DNA from: Anaerolineae bacterium
GTDB taxonomy: Bacteria; Chloroflexota; Anaerolineae; Aggregatilineales; Ch27
Length of the DNA stretch: 64,000 nt
Reading direction: 5' to 3'
Assembly: GCA_013178165.1 (NCBI GenBank)
Contig: JABLXG010000001.1
Location: 81,605 to 145,604 of the forward strand
The notes under the pieces are model-generated. The model did no database searches, was not told where the DNA came from, and saw only the letters and a list, made by a program, of their open reading frames with translations. Positions 39,584 to 45,706 of the stretch are shown one piece after another; position 1 is the stretch's first letter; the number at the start of each line of letters is the position of its first letter. Position numbers and translations under genes: made by a program.

Positions 39584-39656
39584 ATTATAGCGGTCTTTGC
39601 TTGGTGTAGAATACTCAGCGTTTTCTCACCGATTGAAGTACTCAGGTGGTTATAAT
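39584..39656. promoter_or_regulatory. Divergent -10 boxes between trmD and the HAD gene
   Basis: A perfect TATAAT lies on the minus strand at 39589-39584 (40 bases before trmD) and another on the plus strand at 39651-39656 (about 23 bases before the HAD start). The -35 regions are weak in both cases. Confidence 0.35.
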
Positions 39657-39678
39657 CGCAGATATGAAAGGTCGGAAT

Positions 39679-40503
39679 ATGCCAGCAGACTGGGAATTAC
39701 TGGGCGGCATTCGGGCGGCAGTGCTGGATATGGATGGCGTCCTGTGGCGCGGGAACGCCGCCTTGCCTGGCCTCGTTGAGCTGTTTGAGTTCTTTGATCA
39801 GGCGGGAATATCGTATATTCTGGCGACCAACAATAGCACCACCACCGTCAATGCTTACGTGGAAAAGCTGCGGCGATTTGGTGTAACTGTGCGGCCGGAG
39901 AGCATCGTGACTTCCGCGGTGGCGACGGCCGATTACCTGCGCCTGCACTACGGCGACGGGGTGCGAGTACATGTTGTGGGGGAGGCCGGCCTGATCCAGA
40001 CACTGGCTGAGGCCGGGTATTCGAGCGTGGCGGCTGATGCCAATGTAGTCGTCGTCGGGCTTGATCGGGAAGTCACTTACGAGAAGTTGCGGCGAGCTTC
40101 AACGATGATTCGGAACGGGGCGCGGTTCATCGGGACCAACGCCGATCGCACATTCCCGATGCCGGATGGGCTGGTGCCTGGCGCGGGTAGCCTGCTGGCG
40201 TTTCTGCAGGCCTGCACTGACCAGCAACCCCTGGTGATCGGTAAGCCGGAGGCGACTATGTTCGCTATGGCCCTGACCCGACTGGGAACGCGACCGGACC
40301 AGACATTGATGGTTGGCGATCGGGTGGATACCGATGTTGTGGGCGCCAGGCAAGCAGGTTTGCTGACCGCACTGGTACTGAGCGGCGTCACGTCGGCTGA
40401 TATGCTAGCCAGCAGCCCGGCCCAGCCTGATCTATTGTTTGATGATATTGCAGCATTACGGCAGGCCTGGCAGTCTGTTCGGGGGAAGTCGGCGCCGGTC
40501 TAA
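39679..40503 (+). CDS. HAD-IIA family hydrolase (NagD/phosphoglycolate-phosphatase-like)
   Basis: 274 residues. HAD motif I is VLDMDGVLWRG, motif II lies in LATNNSTTT, the IIA cap contains VVVGLDREVTYEKL and FIGTNADRTFP, and motif IV is MVGDRVDTDVVGA. This is the standard HAD-IIA layout of NagD-like phosphatases that remove phosphate from small metabolites. The ATG at 39679 is preferred because GAAAGG lies seven bases upstream and a -10 box at 39651 would remove the earlier start from the transcript. Confidence 0.85.
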   Translation: MPADWELLGGIRAAVLDMDGVLWRGNAALPGLVELFEFFDQAGISYILATNNSTTTVNAYVEKLRRFGVTVRPESIVTSAVATADYLRLHYGDGVRVHVVGEAGLIQTLAEAGYSSVAADANVVVVGLDREVTYEKLRRASTMIRNGARFIGTNADRTFPMPDGLVPGAGSLLAFLQACTDQQPLVIGKPEATMFAMALTRLGTRPDQTLMVGDRVDTDVVGARQAGLLTALVLSGVTSADMLASSPAQPDLLFDDIAALRQAWQSVRGKSAPV

Positions 40504-40534: not shown

Positions 40535-41728
40535 ATGGTAAGACGGTGGTGTCACTGGTGCGGGGCAGCATTCCTGATGTGGTTAGTTGGCGTAGCCGGG
40601 GCATGGATACCGGTCAGCGGTCAGGGTGCCATCCAGATAGTGCGCAAAGATACAGCGATCAGGTATCCTCATTCGGTGACCTTCCGTTTGTCCGCCGCTT
40701 CATCAGCTGCACCAATCACCGAGGCACGGCTCTACTGGCAGGCCGGCCCGCAGGATGTTTTCAATGTCCGGTTTGTTGCCTTCAGCCCGGCGTACTCGGT
40801 CAGTCTGGAGGTGCCTCTGAGCACGCAGTTGCTCAGCCTGCCGCCTTTCGCCCGGATCACCTACCGCTGGCAGATTCGTGATGGCCAGGGGAATACGGTG
40901 GTGACCGAGAATGAGACCTTTGAATACGCCGATAACCGAAAGAACTGGCAGGAGACTGCCAATGAACGGCTTCGCATGCTGTGGTATGGTCTTGACGACG
41001 CCCTCGTAGCGGAGTTATTTGCGGTGGCTGACCAATCATACCAGCAGCTAGCCGCTGACTTTGGTGTGACACTAGAGCGCCACCCGCTTGTCCTGCTCTA
41101 CCCTGATCGGCAGGCGTTCGAGGAATTCCAGGATCTGATGAGCAACGTGGAGTTCGTGGTCGGGCGCTACTTTCCCGGCCATAACATCATTGCCTGTCTG
41201 GTTACGCCTGATTTGCCGCGCGAACTCCTGATGGATACGCTGGCGCATGAGCTTTCCCATCTCTACAGTGATAACTACTACGTGGGGTACACACGGTTGC
41301 CACTGTGGCTGGAGGAAGGACTCTCGACGTACCACGAATCTGCCGACCTGAGTGATGAACTGGCGCTGGTACAACGGGCAGCTGCACAGCAAAGGCTGGT
41401 GCCATTCATTGAGTTGCCGGTTGCTATTCGGGCGAACAACATCCACACGGCCAATCTGGCTTACGCTGAAGGCGCGACGGTCTTCGCCTTCATTCACGAA
41501 ATGTGGGGGCAGGAATCGGTTGTTGACTTCCTGGGTGCATTCCGACGCACCACGCACGTCGATACGGCCATGCGTGATGTCTTTGGGCTGGGAATGGCTG
41601 ATTTTGAGATGGCGTGGCGGGCCTGGCTGGGCTATCCGGTCGAGCAGGTGCCTCAGGCCGTGCCTACGCCTACACTTATCCCTCTCCTTCTTCCTACGCC
41701 AACCTACCTGCCGCCGGGTGGCAATTGA
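40535..41728 (+). CDS. Secreted MA-type (gluzincin) metallopeptidase, paralogue 1
   Basis: 397 residues with a signal peptide (MWLVGVAGAWIPVSG region). An N-terminal beta-sandwich-like domain (about 35-140, ending ITYRWQIRDGQGN) precedes a peptidase MA-like domain. The zinc motif HELSH is at 238-242 and the third ligand candidate Glu261 is in WLEEGLSTY, 19 residues later. A short Pro/Thr tail ends the protein without an anchor. It is the first of three tandem paralogues at 40.5-44.7 kb. Substrate unknown; likely extracytoplasmic proteolysis. Confidence 0.8.
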   Translation: MVRRWCHWCGAAFLMWLVGVAGAWIPVSGQGAIQIVRKDTAIRYPHSVTFRLSAASSAAPITEARLYWQAGPQDVFNVRFVAFSPAYSVSLEVPLSTQLLSLPPFARITYRWQIRDGQGNTVVTENETFEYADNRKNWQETANERLRMLWYGLDDALVAELFAVADQSYQQLAADFGVTLERHPLVLLYPDRQAFEEFQDLMSNVEFVVGRYFPGHNIIACLVTPDLPRELLMDTLAHELSHLYSDNYYVGYTRLPLWLEEGLSTYHESADLSDELALVQRAAAQQRLVPFIELPVAIRANNIHTANLAYAEGATVFAFIHEMWGQESVVDFLGAFRRTTHVDTAMRDVFGLGMADFEMAWRAWLGYPVEQVPQAVPTPTLIPLLLPTPTYLPPGGN

Positions 41729-41761
41729 TGTGGTTGGCTGTCATCTTTGTTGGGGTGTCAT

Positions 41762-43048
41762 ATGTGTACCTGGAAGTGTGGTGTCTGGGGTGTCTGCCGC
41801 GATAACAGGCAGAGGGTAGTTGCTGCTGGTGTGCTAGTGCTGGCCGCAGTACTGCTGTTGGGCGGTCAATTTGTGGGAGCGCAGGGCGGGGGGCACACTC
41901 TGGCCGAACCGGTGGCGCCGCTGCCAGCCATGGTGCAGGGTAGCGCGGCGTGGACGATCGGCGAGCCAGCGTTTGAAGGGGAGTTCCCGGAGGGCATGCG
42001 TTTCAGCATCGCGGCCAGCAGCAGCGCGGGACGCATCACCAGCGCCCGTGTGGTATGGTCTCATGCGCCGGGAAACAACACACGGCGGAGCCGGGGAGCT
42101 TCCTATGAGGAAACGAGCGGACGTTGGGTGGCTGTCTGGCCTCATGATCGGGGCGATGTTCCCCCCTGGGTGCTGGTGCGTTACCACTGGGAGCTGACTG
42201 ACGAACTGGGCAACCGGTATATCAGCGCCGAACGCGATGAGATCTATGCTGATGCTGACAACGCAGCACGATGGCATTCGGCTGAGAGTGAAGACGTGGT
42301 GGTGTACTGGATCGATCTGCCGGCTGAATTCGGCCAACAGACGATCCAGGCTATGGCCGAAAGGCGTGAGTTCTTCCACCAGGCTTGGGGAGGGCCGCTG
42401 CCCTACCGGCCCCGCGTAATCCTGTATGGGCCGACGGCATTGCCTGAATATGAACAGGCTCTTGGCCGCCCGGCCCGGATCGGCGCTGGGATCACAACCG
42501 GTACAACCAGCGAAGACTGGGGTGGAACCATCCAGTATGCTCGCCTGGCTGATTCGGCGTATGGCATGGGCTATGGCACAGTGCTGCACGAGATCGCCCA
42601 TCTGTACCAGGGCGAGTATGCTCACCTGCCGGTAGACTGGTTTGTGGAGGGTAACGCGGAGTTCTTCAGCGTAGCGCGGGACATTGACTACCGGGAATGG
42701 GGGCGGCAGCGCCTGTTGAGCGGCGATCCGCTGTCCTTTGCTCACGGGTTTTCCATTCGCGGCCGCACCTTCCGGGATGGCTACCAGCTTGGCGCTACGG
42801 TCTTTGAGTATCTGGTAGCTACCTATGGACTGGATGCACACCGCCGAGTATGGGAGCTTATTGGCAGGAATGTGCCAGCCCTGCAGGCCATTGAACAGGT
42901 GACTGGCGTGACCATCGCGCAATTCGAGCGAGACTGGCGTTCCTGGATGGGTGTGGATACCCCGCCGCCAACACTGGCGCCGTCCCCAACCCCGCCATTT
43001 GACATCTATACCCTGCCAACGCCTACCTTTGTGGCACCTGGTTCCTAG
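41762..43048 (+). CDS. Secreted MA-type (gluzincin) metallopeptidase, paralogue 2
   Basis: About 428 residues. A signal peptide (VVAAGVLVLAAVLLLGGQF) is followed by a beta-sandwich-like domain with the same VRYHWELTDELGN pattern as paralogue 1. The peptidase domain has HEIAH at 276-280 and Glu296 in WFVEGNAEFF. A Pro/Thr-rich tail (PTLAPSPTPP) ends the protein. The ATG at 41762 has a GGGGTG upstream; a TTG at 41747 is less likely. It lies 34 bases after paralogue 1, so they are probably one transcript. Confidence 0.8.
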   Translation: MCTWKCGVWGVCRDNRQRVVAAGVLVLAAVLLLGGQFVGAQGGGHTLAEPVAPLPAMVQGSAAWTIGEPAFEGEFPEGMRFSIAASSSAGRITSARVVWSHAPGNNTRRSRGASYEETSGRWVAVWPHDRGDVPPWVLVRYHWELTDELGNRYISAERDEIYADADNAARWHSAESEDVVVYWIDLPAEFGQQTIQAMAERREFFHQAWGGPLPYRPRVILYGPTALPEYEQALGRPARIGAGITTGTTSEDWGGTIQYARLADSAYGMGYGTVLHEIAHLYQGEYAHLPVDWFVEGNAEFFSVARDIDYREWGRQRLLSGDPLSFAHGFSIRGRTFRDGYQLGATVFEYLVATYGLDAHRRVWELIGRNVPALQAIEQVTGVTIAQFERDWRSWMGVDTPPPTLAPSPTPPFDIYTLPTPTFVAPGS

Positions 43049-43157
43049 CGGTGTGGAAGTCCGGTCTGGCGACAGTACAGCGGTTTCAGGATTGGCCGAT
43101 CTGGCAAAGCTTGGTTTACAATCAAGAAAGCACCCGGTAATCAGGGGGGCCATAACG

Positions 43158-44657
43158 GTGATTCGACGAATCTTGCTGGTTGGTCTGCTGGCGATGATCG
43201 CGCTTCCGGCGGTGTCTTTTGCGGGCGTGAGGGCGCAGGAGGATACCGGCCCTGGCATTATGAGCCTGCGGGTGGAAGTCCTTTTTCCGGCAGTGGTACG
43301 TTTCTTCGTGAGTCTTGAGCAGGGTGCTGCAGCGCCACAGACTGCGTTGCTGACGTTGATGCAGGAAGGTCGCACCCTGTTTGTCGATCAGGTTGATCTT
43401 GTTGTTCACTCCGAAGAGACTGCCACGACATGGCGCTATGACTGGCCTATACCGCCGGAGGGCGCGCCAAAGCTATTTGTACCGGTGTCTTACCGCTGGA
43501 CTCTGGCTGATGCTGCAGGCGTTCAGCAGGAAGCCGAAGGTGAGTTCCTGTTTGCGCCGGGGTCGGCTGACTTCCGGCATGGCGGCGAGCCTCCTTTGTC
43601 ATTCAGTGTTGTGGACAGCAGCCTGAACCTCCGGATGGCCAGGCAGGCTGTGCTACCGGCGTATGCGCTGATGAGCACGCAAACGGCCCTTGAACCGGCG
43701 TTTCGGTGGGCCGTGTTGCCTTCGGGCTTCGCTTTCTGCGTCTCTATCATTGATGCAAACGGCAATCCTGCCTCGGTTGTGCTGGCTCCAGCGCCGAAAG
43801 AGGAACCAGCGGCTTATCCGTGTCGTGAGGAGGATGCTGAGCGATTGTTTGCCGAGAGCGGGTATCAGATTCTGCGGCGTCGGACAGTCGGTCTATTGCC
43901 CTTTGAGAACGAACTGGTTGACGCCATGTTTGAGGCGTTCTACGGACAATACTGGGCGGAGCGGGATGTGCCATCCTGGTTCCGCGCAGGATTGCGCCAG
44001 TACCTGCATGTGAACCCAGACCCGCTGGCAATCCGCTATTTGCAGGTTGAAGGGCGGGCTGACCGGTTGTTCAATGCGGCGCAGATGCAATCTGAGCCAG
44101 TTGAGGCGGATCGCCAGTTGTGGGAGGCGCAGGCGTACAGCCTGGTGCTGTATCTCGCCGATCGCTACGGGGCGGAGGCGCCGCTGACACTGGCGCGTGG
44201 CGTGATCGAAGGCGGTTGGGCGCAGGGATTCAGTGAGCTGGTCGGCGGCGACCTGGAGGCACTCATGGCCGGCTGGGAGCGCTGGCTGTACACCGACGCT
44301 GCAGCGCGGGCCGGAGGCTGGACATTGTACATGCCCGCTACGGCTACGCCGACCCCGACCCGGACGGTCACCCCTGTTCCGCTGACAGCCATACCTCCAG
44401 CGAGCGTTACAATGCTGCCCACCTTAGCCACGACTCTCACGCCGACCGGCGTGATGACCCATGACGTTATGCCGGTCCTGACAACAGCGCCGGCTGTGTC
44501 GACCGCCACCAACACGCCGCGACCTCCGGGAAGTCTCACGCAGCCGTCACCAGTTGACTCTGAGCCGGGTGGGGGGATCTGCCCGGCTGCCCTACCAGCG
44601 TTACTCATGCCTGCCGCAGGACTGGCAGCCGTTCAATGCCGGAAGAAATTGCCATGA
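43158..44657 (+). CDS. Secreted MA-like protein with lost zinc site, paralogue 3
   Basis: About 499 residues, starting at a GTG with GGGGGG upstream and a signal peptide (ILLVGLLAMIALPAVSFA). The N-terminal domain ends with VSYRWTLADAAG, like its two neighbours. At the place of HExxH it has NELVD (251-255), and the WLEEG motif is WFRAG, so both His and the third ligand are replaced and catalysis is unlikely. Other parts of the fold remain (YLADRYGAEAPL, LMAGWERWLYT). A long Thr/Pro spacer leads to a hydrophobic C-terminus after GGGICP and then Arg-Lys-Lys, suggesting a membrane or sorting tail. Its stop overlaps rlmN as ATGA. Confidence 0.75.
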   Translation: MIRRILLVGLLAMIALPAVSFAGVRAQEDTGPGIMSLRVEVLFPAVVRFFVSLEQGAAAPQTALLTLMQEGRTLFVDQVDLVVHSEETATTWRYDWPIPPEGAPKLFVPVSYRWTLADAAGVQQEAEGEFLFAPGSADFRHGGEPPLSFSVVDSSLNLRMARQAVLPAYALMSTQTALEPAFRWAVLPSGFAFCVSIIDANGNPASVVLAPAPKEEPAAYPCREEDAERLFAESGYQILRRRTVGLLPFENELVDAMFEAFYGQYWAERDVPSWFRAGLRQYLHVNPDPLAIRYLQVEGRADRLFNAAQMQSEPVEADRQLWEAQAYSLVLYLADRYGAEAPLTLARGVIEGGWAQGFSELVGGDLEALMAGWERWLYTDAAARAGGWTLYMPATATPTPTRTVTPVPLTAIPPASVTMLPTLATTLTPTGVMTHDVMPVLTTAPAVSTATNTPRPPGSLTQPSPVDSEPGGGICPAALPALLMPAAGLAAVQCRKKLP

Positions 44658-45706
44658 TCCAGCTTTACGATCTCACGCTAGATGAACTCACTGCGCTGGT
44701 CACCGGATGGGGACAGCCAGCCTACCGGGCACGCCAGATCTGGCAGTGGCTGTATGTGCAGAAGGTCACTGACATTCAGGACATGCGCAACCTGCCCGCC
44801 GATCTGAGGGCGCAACTGGCGGAGGAAACACGGCTTAACGCCCTTGAGGTAGCGCGGGAGCTGTACTCGACAGACGGCCAAACAGTCAAGTGGCTCTTTC
44901 GCCTGCCGGACGGCCAGTTGATCGAAAGCGTCCTGATGGGTTATGCGGATGGGAGACGGACAGCGTGCATCAGCACTCAGGCTGGCTGCGCGATGGGTTG
45001 TGTCTTCTGTGCGACCGGACAGATGGGTTTTGCCCGCCATCTCTCCTCAGGGGAGATTGTGGAGCAAGCGGTCTTCCTGGCAAGGTGGCTGGAGGGGCGC
45101 GGCGAACGGCTGAGCAATGTGGTGTTGATGGGCATGGGAGAACCCCTGCATAACTACGAGCAGGTCCTGGCGGCGATCCGGCGGCTGAACGCGCCGGAAG
45201 GGCTTGGTATCGGTCAGCGTCATATTACGCTCAGCACTGTTGGACTGGTGCCACAGATCCGTCGTTTTGCGGACGAGAATCTTCAGGTGAAACTGGCCAT
45301 CAGTCTGCATGCAGCGACAGACGAAGAACGATCGGCATTGTTGCCGGTCAACAGTCGCTGGCCGCTGCGTGAACTGCTTGACGCCTGCCGGTACTATATT
45401 GAAAAGACGGGCCGGCGGGTTACCTTCGAGTGGGCACTGATCGCAGGGCAAAATGACGTGCCGGAACAGGCCCATGCACTTGGTTCGCTGCTGCAGGGGC
45501 TGTTATGTCACGTCAATCTGATCCCCCTCAACCCGACTGGCGGCTATAGCGGGCAACCTTCTGATCCCGATCGTGTGGCCGCCTTCCAGGCGATTCTGGC
45601 CACGTATGGCGTCAGGAACACCGTGCGTGTGCGGCGGGGAATCGACATCAATGCTGGATGCGGGCAGTTGAAAGCGGAGGTCATCCGTTCCAGGGATGTT
45701 CGCTGA
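44654..45706 (+). CDS. rlmN: Dual-specificity RNA (adenine-C2)-methyltransferase RlmN
   Basis: 350 residues, radical SAM enzyme that methylates A2503 of 23S rRNA and A37 of some tRNAs. The iron-sulfur motif CAMGCVFC uses Cys112, Cys116 and Cys119. The methyl-carrying C-terminal Cys336 is in NAGCGQLKAE, and VLMGMGEPLHNYE is conserved. The ATG at 44654 overlaps the stop of paralogue 3 in ATGA and has GGAAG upstream; an ATG at 44636 is possible. Coupling to the secreted-protein gene is unexpected functionally. Confidence 0.94.
   Translation: MIQLYDLTLDELTALVTGWGQPAYRARQIWQWLYVQKVTDIQDMRNLPADLRAQLAEETRLNALEVARELYSTDGQTVKWLFRLPDGQLIESVLMGYADGRRTACISTQAGCAMGCVFCATGQMGFARHLSSGEIVEQAVFLARWLEGRGERLSNVVLMGMGEPLHNYEQVLAAIRRLNAPEGLGIGQRHITLSTVGLVPQIRRFADENLQVKLAISLHAATDEERSALLPVNSRWPLRELLDACRYYIEKTGRRVTFEWALIAGQNDVPEQAHALGSLLQGLLCHVNLIPLNPTGGYSGQPSDPDRVAAFQAILATYGVRNTVRVRRGIDINAGCGQLKAEVIRSRDVR

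Follow-up and report, generated by a model that had tools for sequence, protein, structure and literature searches.

A membrane-anchored gluzincin homologue, predicted to be inactive, encoded beside two predicted active secreted homologues

Background

Active metallopeptidases paired with inactive homologues are already known in prokaryotes. Two-gene operons encode M16B active/inactive pairs (PMC11266112), and TldD has an inactive partner in TldE (PMC5810440). Elsewhere, pseudopeptidases bind through their former active site or surface, and Goe, a membrane-bound Drosophila M13 protein, is thought to trap its ligand; the review of these proteins covers mostly eukaryotic cases (PMC11266112). An earlier reading of the locus described here, made from the DNA letters without searches (the sequence-only reading), stated that no system of this form had been described, and the M16B and TldD/TldE pairs make that statement too strong. 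In open-licence papers, we found no anchored pseudo-member beside soluble active members and nothing relevant on this protein family in Chloroflexi. Judged from sequence comparison, what appears to be new is that the dead member is anchored and independently conserved.

Organization of the locus

The window, the whole stretch of DNA that was analyzed, is 64 kb within a 4.2 Mb draft genome. Judged from its nearest named relatives, metagenome genomes with the labels Chloroflexi, Ardenticatenia, Anaerolineae, and Aggregatilineales, the bacterium belongs to Chloroflexota and most likely to the class Anaerolineae. The gene order is lysS, an L,D-transpeptidase-like gene, trmD (opposite strand), a HAD-family gene, three homologous genes that we call g1, g2, and g3, and rlmN (Table 1). 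The names lysS, L,D-transpeptidase-like, trmD, and HAD-family (NagD-like) phosphatase are our assumptions, taken from reading the translations rather than from a family search. The open reading frames bear out three adjacent genes on one strand, with narrow gaps between them, and g3 and rlmN overlap by 22 bp. We place the start of g1 at ATG 40535, of g2 most likely at ATG 41762 (its open reading frame opens at TTG 41747), and of g3 at GTG 43158, with GGGGGG upstream. Residue numbering starts at codon 41747 for g2 and at codon 43155 for g3. A scan for operon signals between 39.5 and 45.8 kb gave one promoter-like and four terminator-like sites, not above shuffled sequences.

The tail of g1 carries a conserved PTPTxxPxxxPTPT..PPG pattern. 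A P/T-rich C-terminal end of the (L/F)PTPTFxxPG type occurs in g1, in g2, and in two unlinked paralogues (window 41660-41725 and 42970-43045; L061, L062), and is a possible sorting or interaction tag.

Table 1. Features of the gluzincin locus, in window positions
Feature	Position	Strand	Basis or remark
Putative HAD-family (NagD-like) phosphatase gene	39646..40503	+	BLAST-conserved upstream neighbour of g1/g2/g3 in f1, f4, f6
g1, predicted secreted gluzincin, intact zinc site, 397 aa, HELSH + WLEEG	40535..41728	+	PF13485, 72.5 bits
HELSH zinc motif of g1	41246..41260	+	sequence
g2, predicted secreted gluzincin, intact zinc site, HEIAH + WFVEG, no C-terminal anchor	41762..43048	+	sequence, AlphaFold2 model
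HEIAH zinc motif of g2	42587..42601	+	sequence
g3, predicted dead gluzincin: signal peptide, beta-sandwich, P/T-rich stalk, C-terminal membrane anchor	43158..44657	+	profiles, model, hydropathy
DAMFE (256-260), predicted site of the lost HExxH in g3	43920..43934	+	profile alignment, HEIVT in G042, helix position in models
WFRAG (275-279) of g3, Glu ligand position = Ala278	43977..43991	+	alignment
Cys195 to Cys223 stretch of g3	43737..43823	+	aligned orthologues
TNTPRPPGSL motif of g3, N-terminal to the anchor	44508..44537	+	conserved
Predicted C-terminal anchor of g3 (GGGICPAALPALLMPAAGLAAVQCRKKLP)	44568..44654	+	hydropathy
rlmN, neighbour common to nearly all g3 genes	44636..45706	+	neighbourhood census

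Homology and predicted fold

The three proteins are full-length homologues with a signal peptide, an Ig/fn3-like beta-sandwich, and a gluzincin domain (signal peptide and anchor calls are rule-based). The sequence-only reading had named these shared parts, and they were recovered in each gene: an N-terminal hydrophobic signal; the sandwich motif Y-x-W-x-(L/I)-x-D-x-x-G, present as YRWQIRDGQG (g1), YHWELTDELG (g2), and YRWTLADAAG (g3); and an MA-type peptidase domain, supported by PF13485 matches, by profile–profile homology, and by AlphaFold2 models of g2 and g3. Against PF13485 (Peptidase_MA_2; curated cut-off 32.4 bits), g1 lies above the cut-off, and g2 (17.7 bits) and g3 (24.4 bits, E 2.9e-5) lie below it; a few g3 orthologues exceed it. 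Profile–profile comparison (hhalign) relates the g3 family to the g1 family at 99.2% over 340 columns, the g3 family to the g2 family at 99.1% over 312 columns, and the g2 family to the g1 family at 100%. In NCBIfam, no family reached its cut-off. When the PDB was searched by sequence, the g3 profile found no relative, and the g1 profile gave weak M1 aminopeptidase matches only (best E 0.0056).

The AlphaFold2 model of g3 has 300 residues with pLDDT of at least 90 and is confident from about residue 36 to 398. The g2 model is of fair quality and has the same order of elements. In both models we predict a beta-sandwich and a gluzincin domain in which the active-site helix comes before the ligand helix, in keeping with the common fold that had been proposed. 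Both match solved gluzincins of families M30, M9, and M1 (VIA-align), with M30 lugdulysin at the top and M1 and M9 enzymes lower; the Z-scores for lugdulysin (13.4 over 214 residues for g3, 13.9 over 231 residues for g2, both at 4.2 Å) are only moderately over the tool's background note, and the matches are remote. We accept the gluzincin fold despite the moderate Z because the domain order and the sequence profiles concur. Among the structural matches of g3 is PDB 7edx chain B (Z 10.8), which we take to be TAF2, a pseudo-M1 protein. For g3, most plain Foldseek matches were lone beta-sandwich domains of low TM-score, so the VIA-align rows were used instead.

Loss of the active site in g3

As had been read from the window, g1 and g2 keep HExxH and a downstream Glu (HELSH/WLEEG and HEIAH/WFVEG). 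The full catalytic set is present in 29/29 g2 rows and 9/9 g1 rows, and by this residue criterion we predict both to be catalytic gluzincins. HExxH with a downstream Glu is absent from g3. The sequence-only reading had seen a dead site there, with NELVD and WFRAG in place of the two motifs; the dead site and WFRAG (Ala278) stand, and NELVD (252-256) does not, as profile alignment pairs HELSH of g1 with D256-A-M-F-E260, four residues later. In the models, the active-site helix spans 271-291 in g2 (with H281-H285 inside) and 247-267 in g3, beginning 10 residues before H281 and 9 before D256. One orthologue (G042) has HEIVT at exactly the D256-E260 register, followed by WFEEG, the best remnant of the site.

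Across about 55 g3 orthologues, none has HExxH and none has the full H,E,H,E set. In the corrected register, the first His is found in 1, the second-position Glu in 4, the third-position His in 0, and the downstream Glu in 12. Substitutions at the former catalytic positions are scattered and varied, and the scaffold residues Y263, W275, G279, C195, and C223 are nearly fixed, with W267 conserved as well. The two cysteines (C195 in 51/55 and C223 in 55/55 aligned orthologues) probably form a disulphide, and T454 and P457-L461 of the TNTPRPPGSL motif are invariant columns. Because no g3 row has the full catalytic set and all g1 and g2 rows have one, we predict that g3 is a pseudoenzyme in every member seen. 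As a single clade under purifying selection, it is an old and conserved one.

Genome G000 also encodes a second PF13485-like protein without HExxH (L060:8853-10127, minus strand; G000:C25 near 44867-45229). It is a probable lipoprotein (LAAC lipobox), contains '...LPVWALEGAAEAV', and sits on a very long branch. Since it branches apart from g3, the zinc site may have been lost more than once.

Selection on g3

The sequence-only reading had made purifying selection on the third gene a check on its proposal, and such selection is seen. In a comparison of G000 with G001, a genome of the same genus, dN/dS is 0.26 (bootstrap 0.15-0.41) and 0.17 (0.11-0.23) for two pieces of g3, 0.10 for g1, and 0.13 for g2. 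The constraint on g3 is weaker than that on the active paralogues, yet far from neutral. Intact g3 orthologues occur across families f1, f2, f4, f6, f7, and f8 of the order. In G001, a stretch of about 107 bp is tandemly duplicated inside g3 and disrupts the reading frame (L039:7781-7900); either the assembly is at fault or the gene has truly been lost.

Gene neighbourhoods in relatives

We searched 101 draft genomes and found g3 in 63, g2-type matches in 46, and g1-type matches in 55 (the types cross-match). The window's own family (f1) has HAD-g1-g2-g3-rlmN in 5/5 genomes, with one contig (G004) ending at g1 so that HAD is not visible there. The arrangement is mostly HAD-g2-g3-rlmN in f4 and mostly g2-g3-rlmN in f8. 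Family f6 has HAD-g1-g3 in one genome (G015) and HAD-g3-rlmN in another (G009), and f7 has mostly g3-rlmN, with HAD-g1-g2 elsewhere in G016 (L144). In most of the 20 f2 genomes g3-rlmN stands alone, and g3-rlmN is the sole arrangement common to nearly all. Of the linkage expected in relatives by the sequence-only reading, the f1 triplet and the g2-g3 pairs of f4 and f8 are found, and the full triplet does not extend beyond f1.

The f2 genomes gave no g1 or g2 match at E 1e-10. Their PF13485 matches listed by place are g3 itself (two weak f2 matches have no listed place), and a query with an anchored relative found nothing in f2 among the matches listed. A hidden, unlinked g2 in genomes with g3 alone was considered; the g2-type, PF13485, and anchored-relative searches rule it out for f2, and it holds for f7. 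As f2 is without g1 or g2 matches, g3 needs no close active relative. Outside f2, 40/41 genomes with a clear g3 have a g1- or g2-type match, a co-occurrence that is suggestive and follows family lines.

Active members appear to multiply repeatedly, as one f7 genome (G046, L142:3465-8600) encodes four tandem active gluzincin genes. The HAD gene also adjoins single active relatives in other orders, and in other groups of the class one anchored active gluzincin lies between HAD and rlmN (L146, L154, L156).

Membrane anchor and origin of the set

A membrane anchor (GGGICPAALPALLMPAAGLAAVQCRKK) lies at the C-terminus of g3 and is missing from g1 and g2; the sequence-only reading overlooked it. A hydropathy rule applied to the 55 C-terminal residues calls an anchor in 50/53 g3, 0/27 g2, and 1/9 g1 proteins, and in 30/33 active relatives elsewhere in the class. 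These are counts of sequences and not of independent events; a single loss of catalysis, with between one and three anchor losses, would be enough to explain them. The three unanchored g3 proteins look truncated or broken; two of the three unanchored active relatives are apparently cut by a contig end and one is borderline. The split of catalysis and anchor is not absolute, since the g1 protein of G015 combines an anchor with an intact zinc site. Many anchors (window 44568-44654; L147, L164, L175) have a Cys beside Gly or Pro just ahead of the hydrophobic stretch, with basic residues following, and resemble a C-terminal sorting signal; the NCBIfam search reported no sorting-signal model for g3.

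In each of three genomes (G270, G355, G312), HAD and rlmN flank one active peptidase that carries an anchor, and this is likely to be the ancestral arrangement. In the tree, g3 forms one clade (SH-aLRT 97 and 100). The G270 and G109 proteins join g3, together with some g1-type rows, at support 91. The stem of the g3 clade is long (1.78), so a long-branch effect may explain why g3 falls near the anchored enzymes that occur as single copies.

On the simplest reading, HAD and rlmN would at first have flanked one gluzincin, active and anchored at its C-terminus. This gene would have multiplied in the window's order, and catalysis and anchoring would then have parted between the copies. Loss of the anchor would have made g1 and g2, with their zinc site intact, soluble secreted peptidases; g3 would have kept the anchor and its place on the rlmN side and lost the zinc site. 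We infer the direction, from an anchored enzyme to soluble active and anchored dead copies, on this basis.

Possible functions of g3

We predict that g3 is exposed on the outside of the membrane, carried by a P/T-rich stalk that ends in the conserved NTPxPPGSL motif. Its sandwich and degenerate gluzincin domain would bind a peptide, wall, or protein ligand without cleaving it, and g3 may dock or regulate g1 and g2 where these are present. The role that we infer as most likely is that of a cell-surface binding (docking) protein. The account as a whole, in which an anchored gluzincin multiplied to give soluble active g1 and g2 and an anchored, dead, surface-binding g3, seems moderately probable. 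Docking of soluble g1 and g2 is favoured by the split of anchor and catalysis and by the co-occurrence; the arrangements in f2 and f7 argue that it is not obligatory, and in f2 a partnership is not needed, since g3 occurs there without a detectable active relative. We suggest tentatively, as a possibility rather than an expectation, that g3 became a surface receptor or adaptor of g1 and g2 after the split by duplication and was later reused alone in one family. If true, catalysis and localisation are divided between paralogues.

Other explanations fit parts of these observations. The sequence-only reading proposed an active/active/inactive enzyme of three parts, an extracytoplasmic protease of several subunits that g3 would regulate or scaffold. 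In its strict form, g3 would be indispensable to the enzyme, on the pattern of MPP alpha/beta or TldD/E. The same-strand linkage in all five f1 genomes, the g2-g3 pairs of f4 and f8, the presence of active paralogues in nearly all g3 genomes outside f2, and precedents (PMC11266112, PMC5810440) speak for such an enzyme. The inactive partner of an obligate heteromer would always occur with an active one, however, and in 20 f2 genomes g3 is kept with neither g1 nor g2; g3 and g1-g2 lie at separate places in f7, f4 and f8 are without a linked g1, and the triplet is confined to f1. The three-part enzyme is thus not supported as the conserved unit, and we consider the obligate assembly unlikely.

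The same f2 and f7 arrangements would suit a free-standing surface adhesin or ligand binder that never contacts g1 or g2, with adjacency as a relic of tandem duplication. The constant partner of g3 is rlmN, which encodes a cytosolic RNA methyltransferase, and the strong conservation of the g3 scaffold would also agree. Against this stand the near-perfect co-occurrence with active paralogues outside f2 and the g2-g3 adjacency maintained across f1, f4, and f8; we regard such a binder as quite possible, if somewhat short of probable. That g3 is instead a decaying pseudogene drifting to loss could be read from the broken frame in G001 and from stops inside the G032 and G040 copies. These broken copies come from draft metagenome assemblies, however, frames are intact in most orthologues of several families, dN/dS is far under 1, and W, C, G, and PPGSL positions are invariant, so that decay is very improbable.

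Comparison with known systems

The locus is an unusually readable natural case of the apparent conversion of a protease to a non-enzyme. One can still make out the genomic slot, the active relatives with their anchors, the active paralogues in soluble form, and part of the zinc site as a remnant. The dead g3 has been conserved in several families, at times in the absence of an active relative. The g3 family is tractable for studying the roles of bacterial pseudopeptidases at the cell surface.

By sequence, the closest described family is PF13485, to which the gluzincin cores of g2 and g3 show weak similarity; unlike the family, g3 is without the zinc site. By structure, lugdulysin (M30, PDB 7bb8/7bb9) shares 10-11% identity with g2 and g3, and it is an active enzyme whereas g3 is predicted to be dead. 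The peptidase domains of M9 collagenases (ColT, ColG, ColH) are the best Foldseek matches of g2 (E 4.7e-7, 17% identity), although g2 is far shorter than a whole collagenase. Goe and TAF2 are gluzincin-type pseudopeptidases with non-catalytic roles, as we propose for g3, but they are eukaryotic, belong to other families, and have no tandem active partner. In MPP alpha/beta, the prokaryotic M16B pairs, and TldD/TldE, a catalytic protein and a non-catalytic homologue are likewise encoded together. These belong to other families, and their inactive subunit is required for the enzyme, whereas g3 persists alone in f2; they also differ from this set in that here only the dead member carries a membrane anchor.
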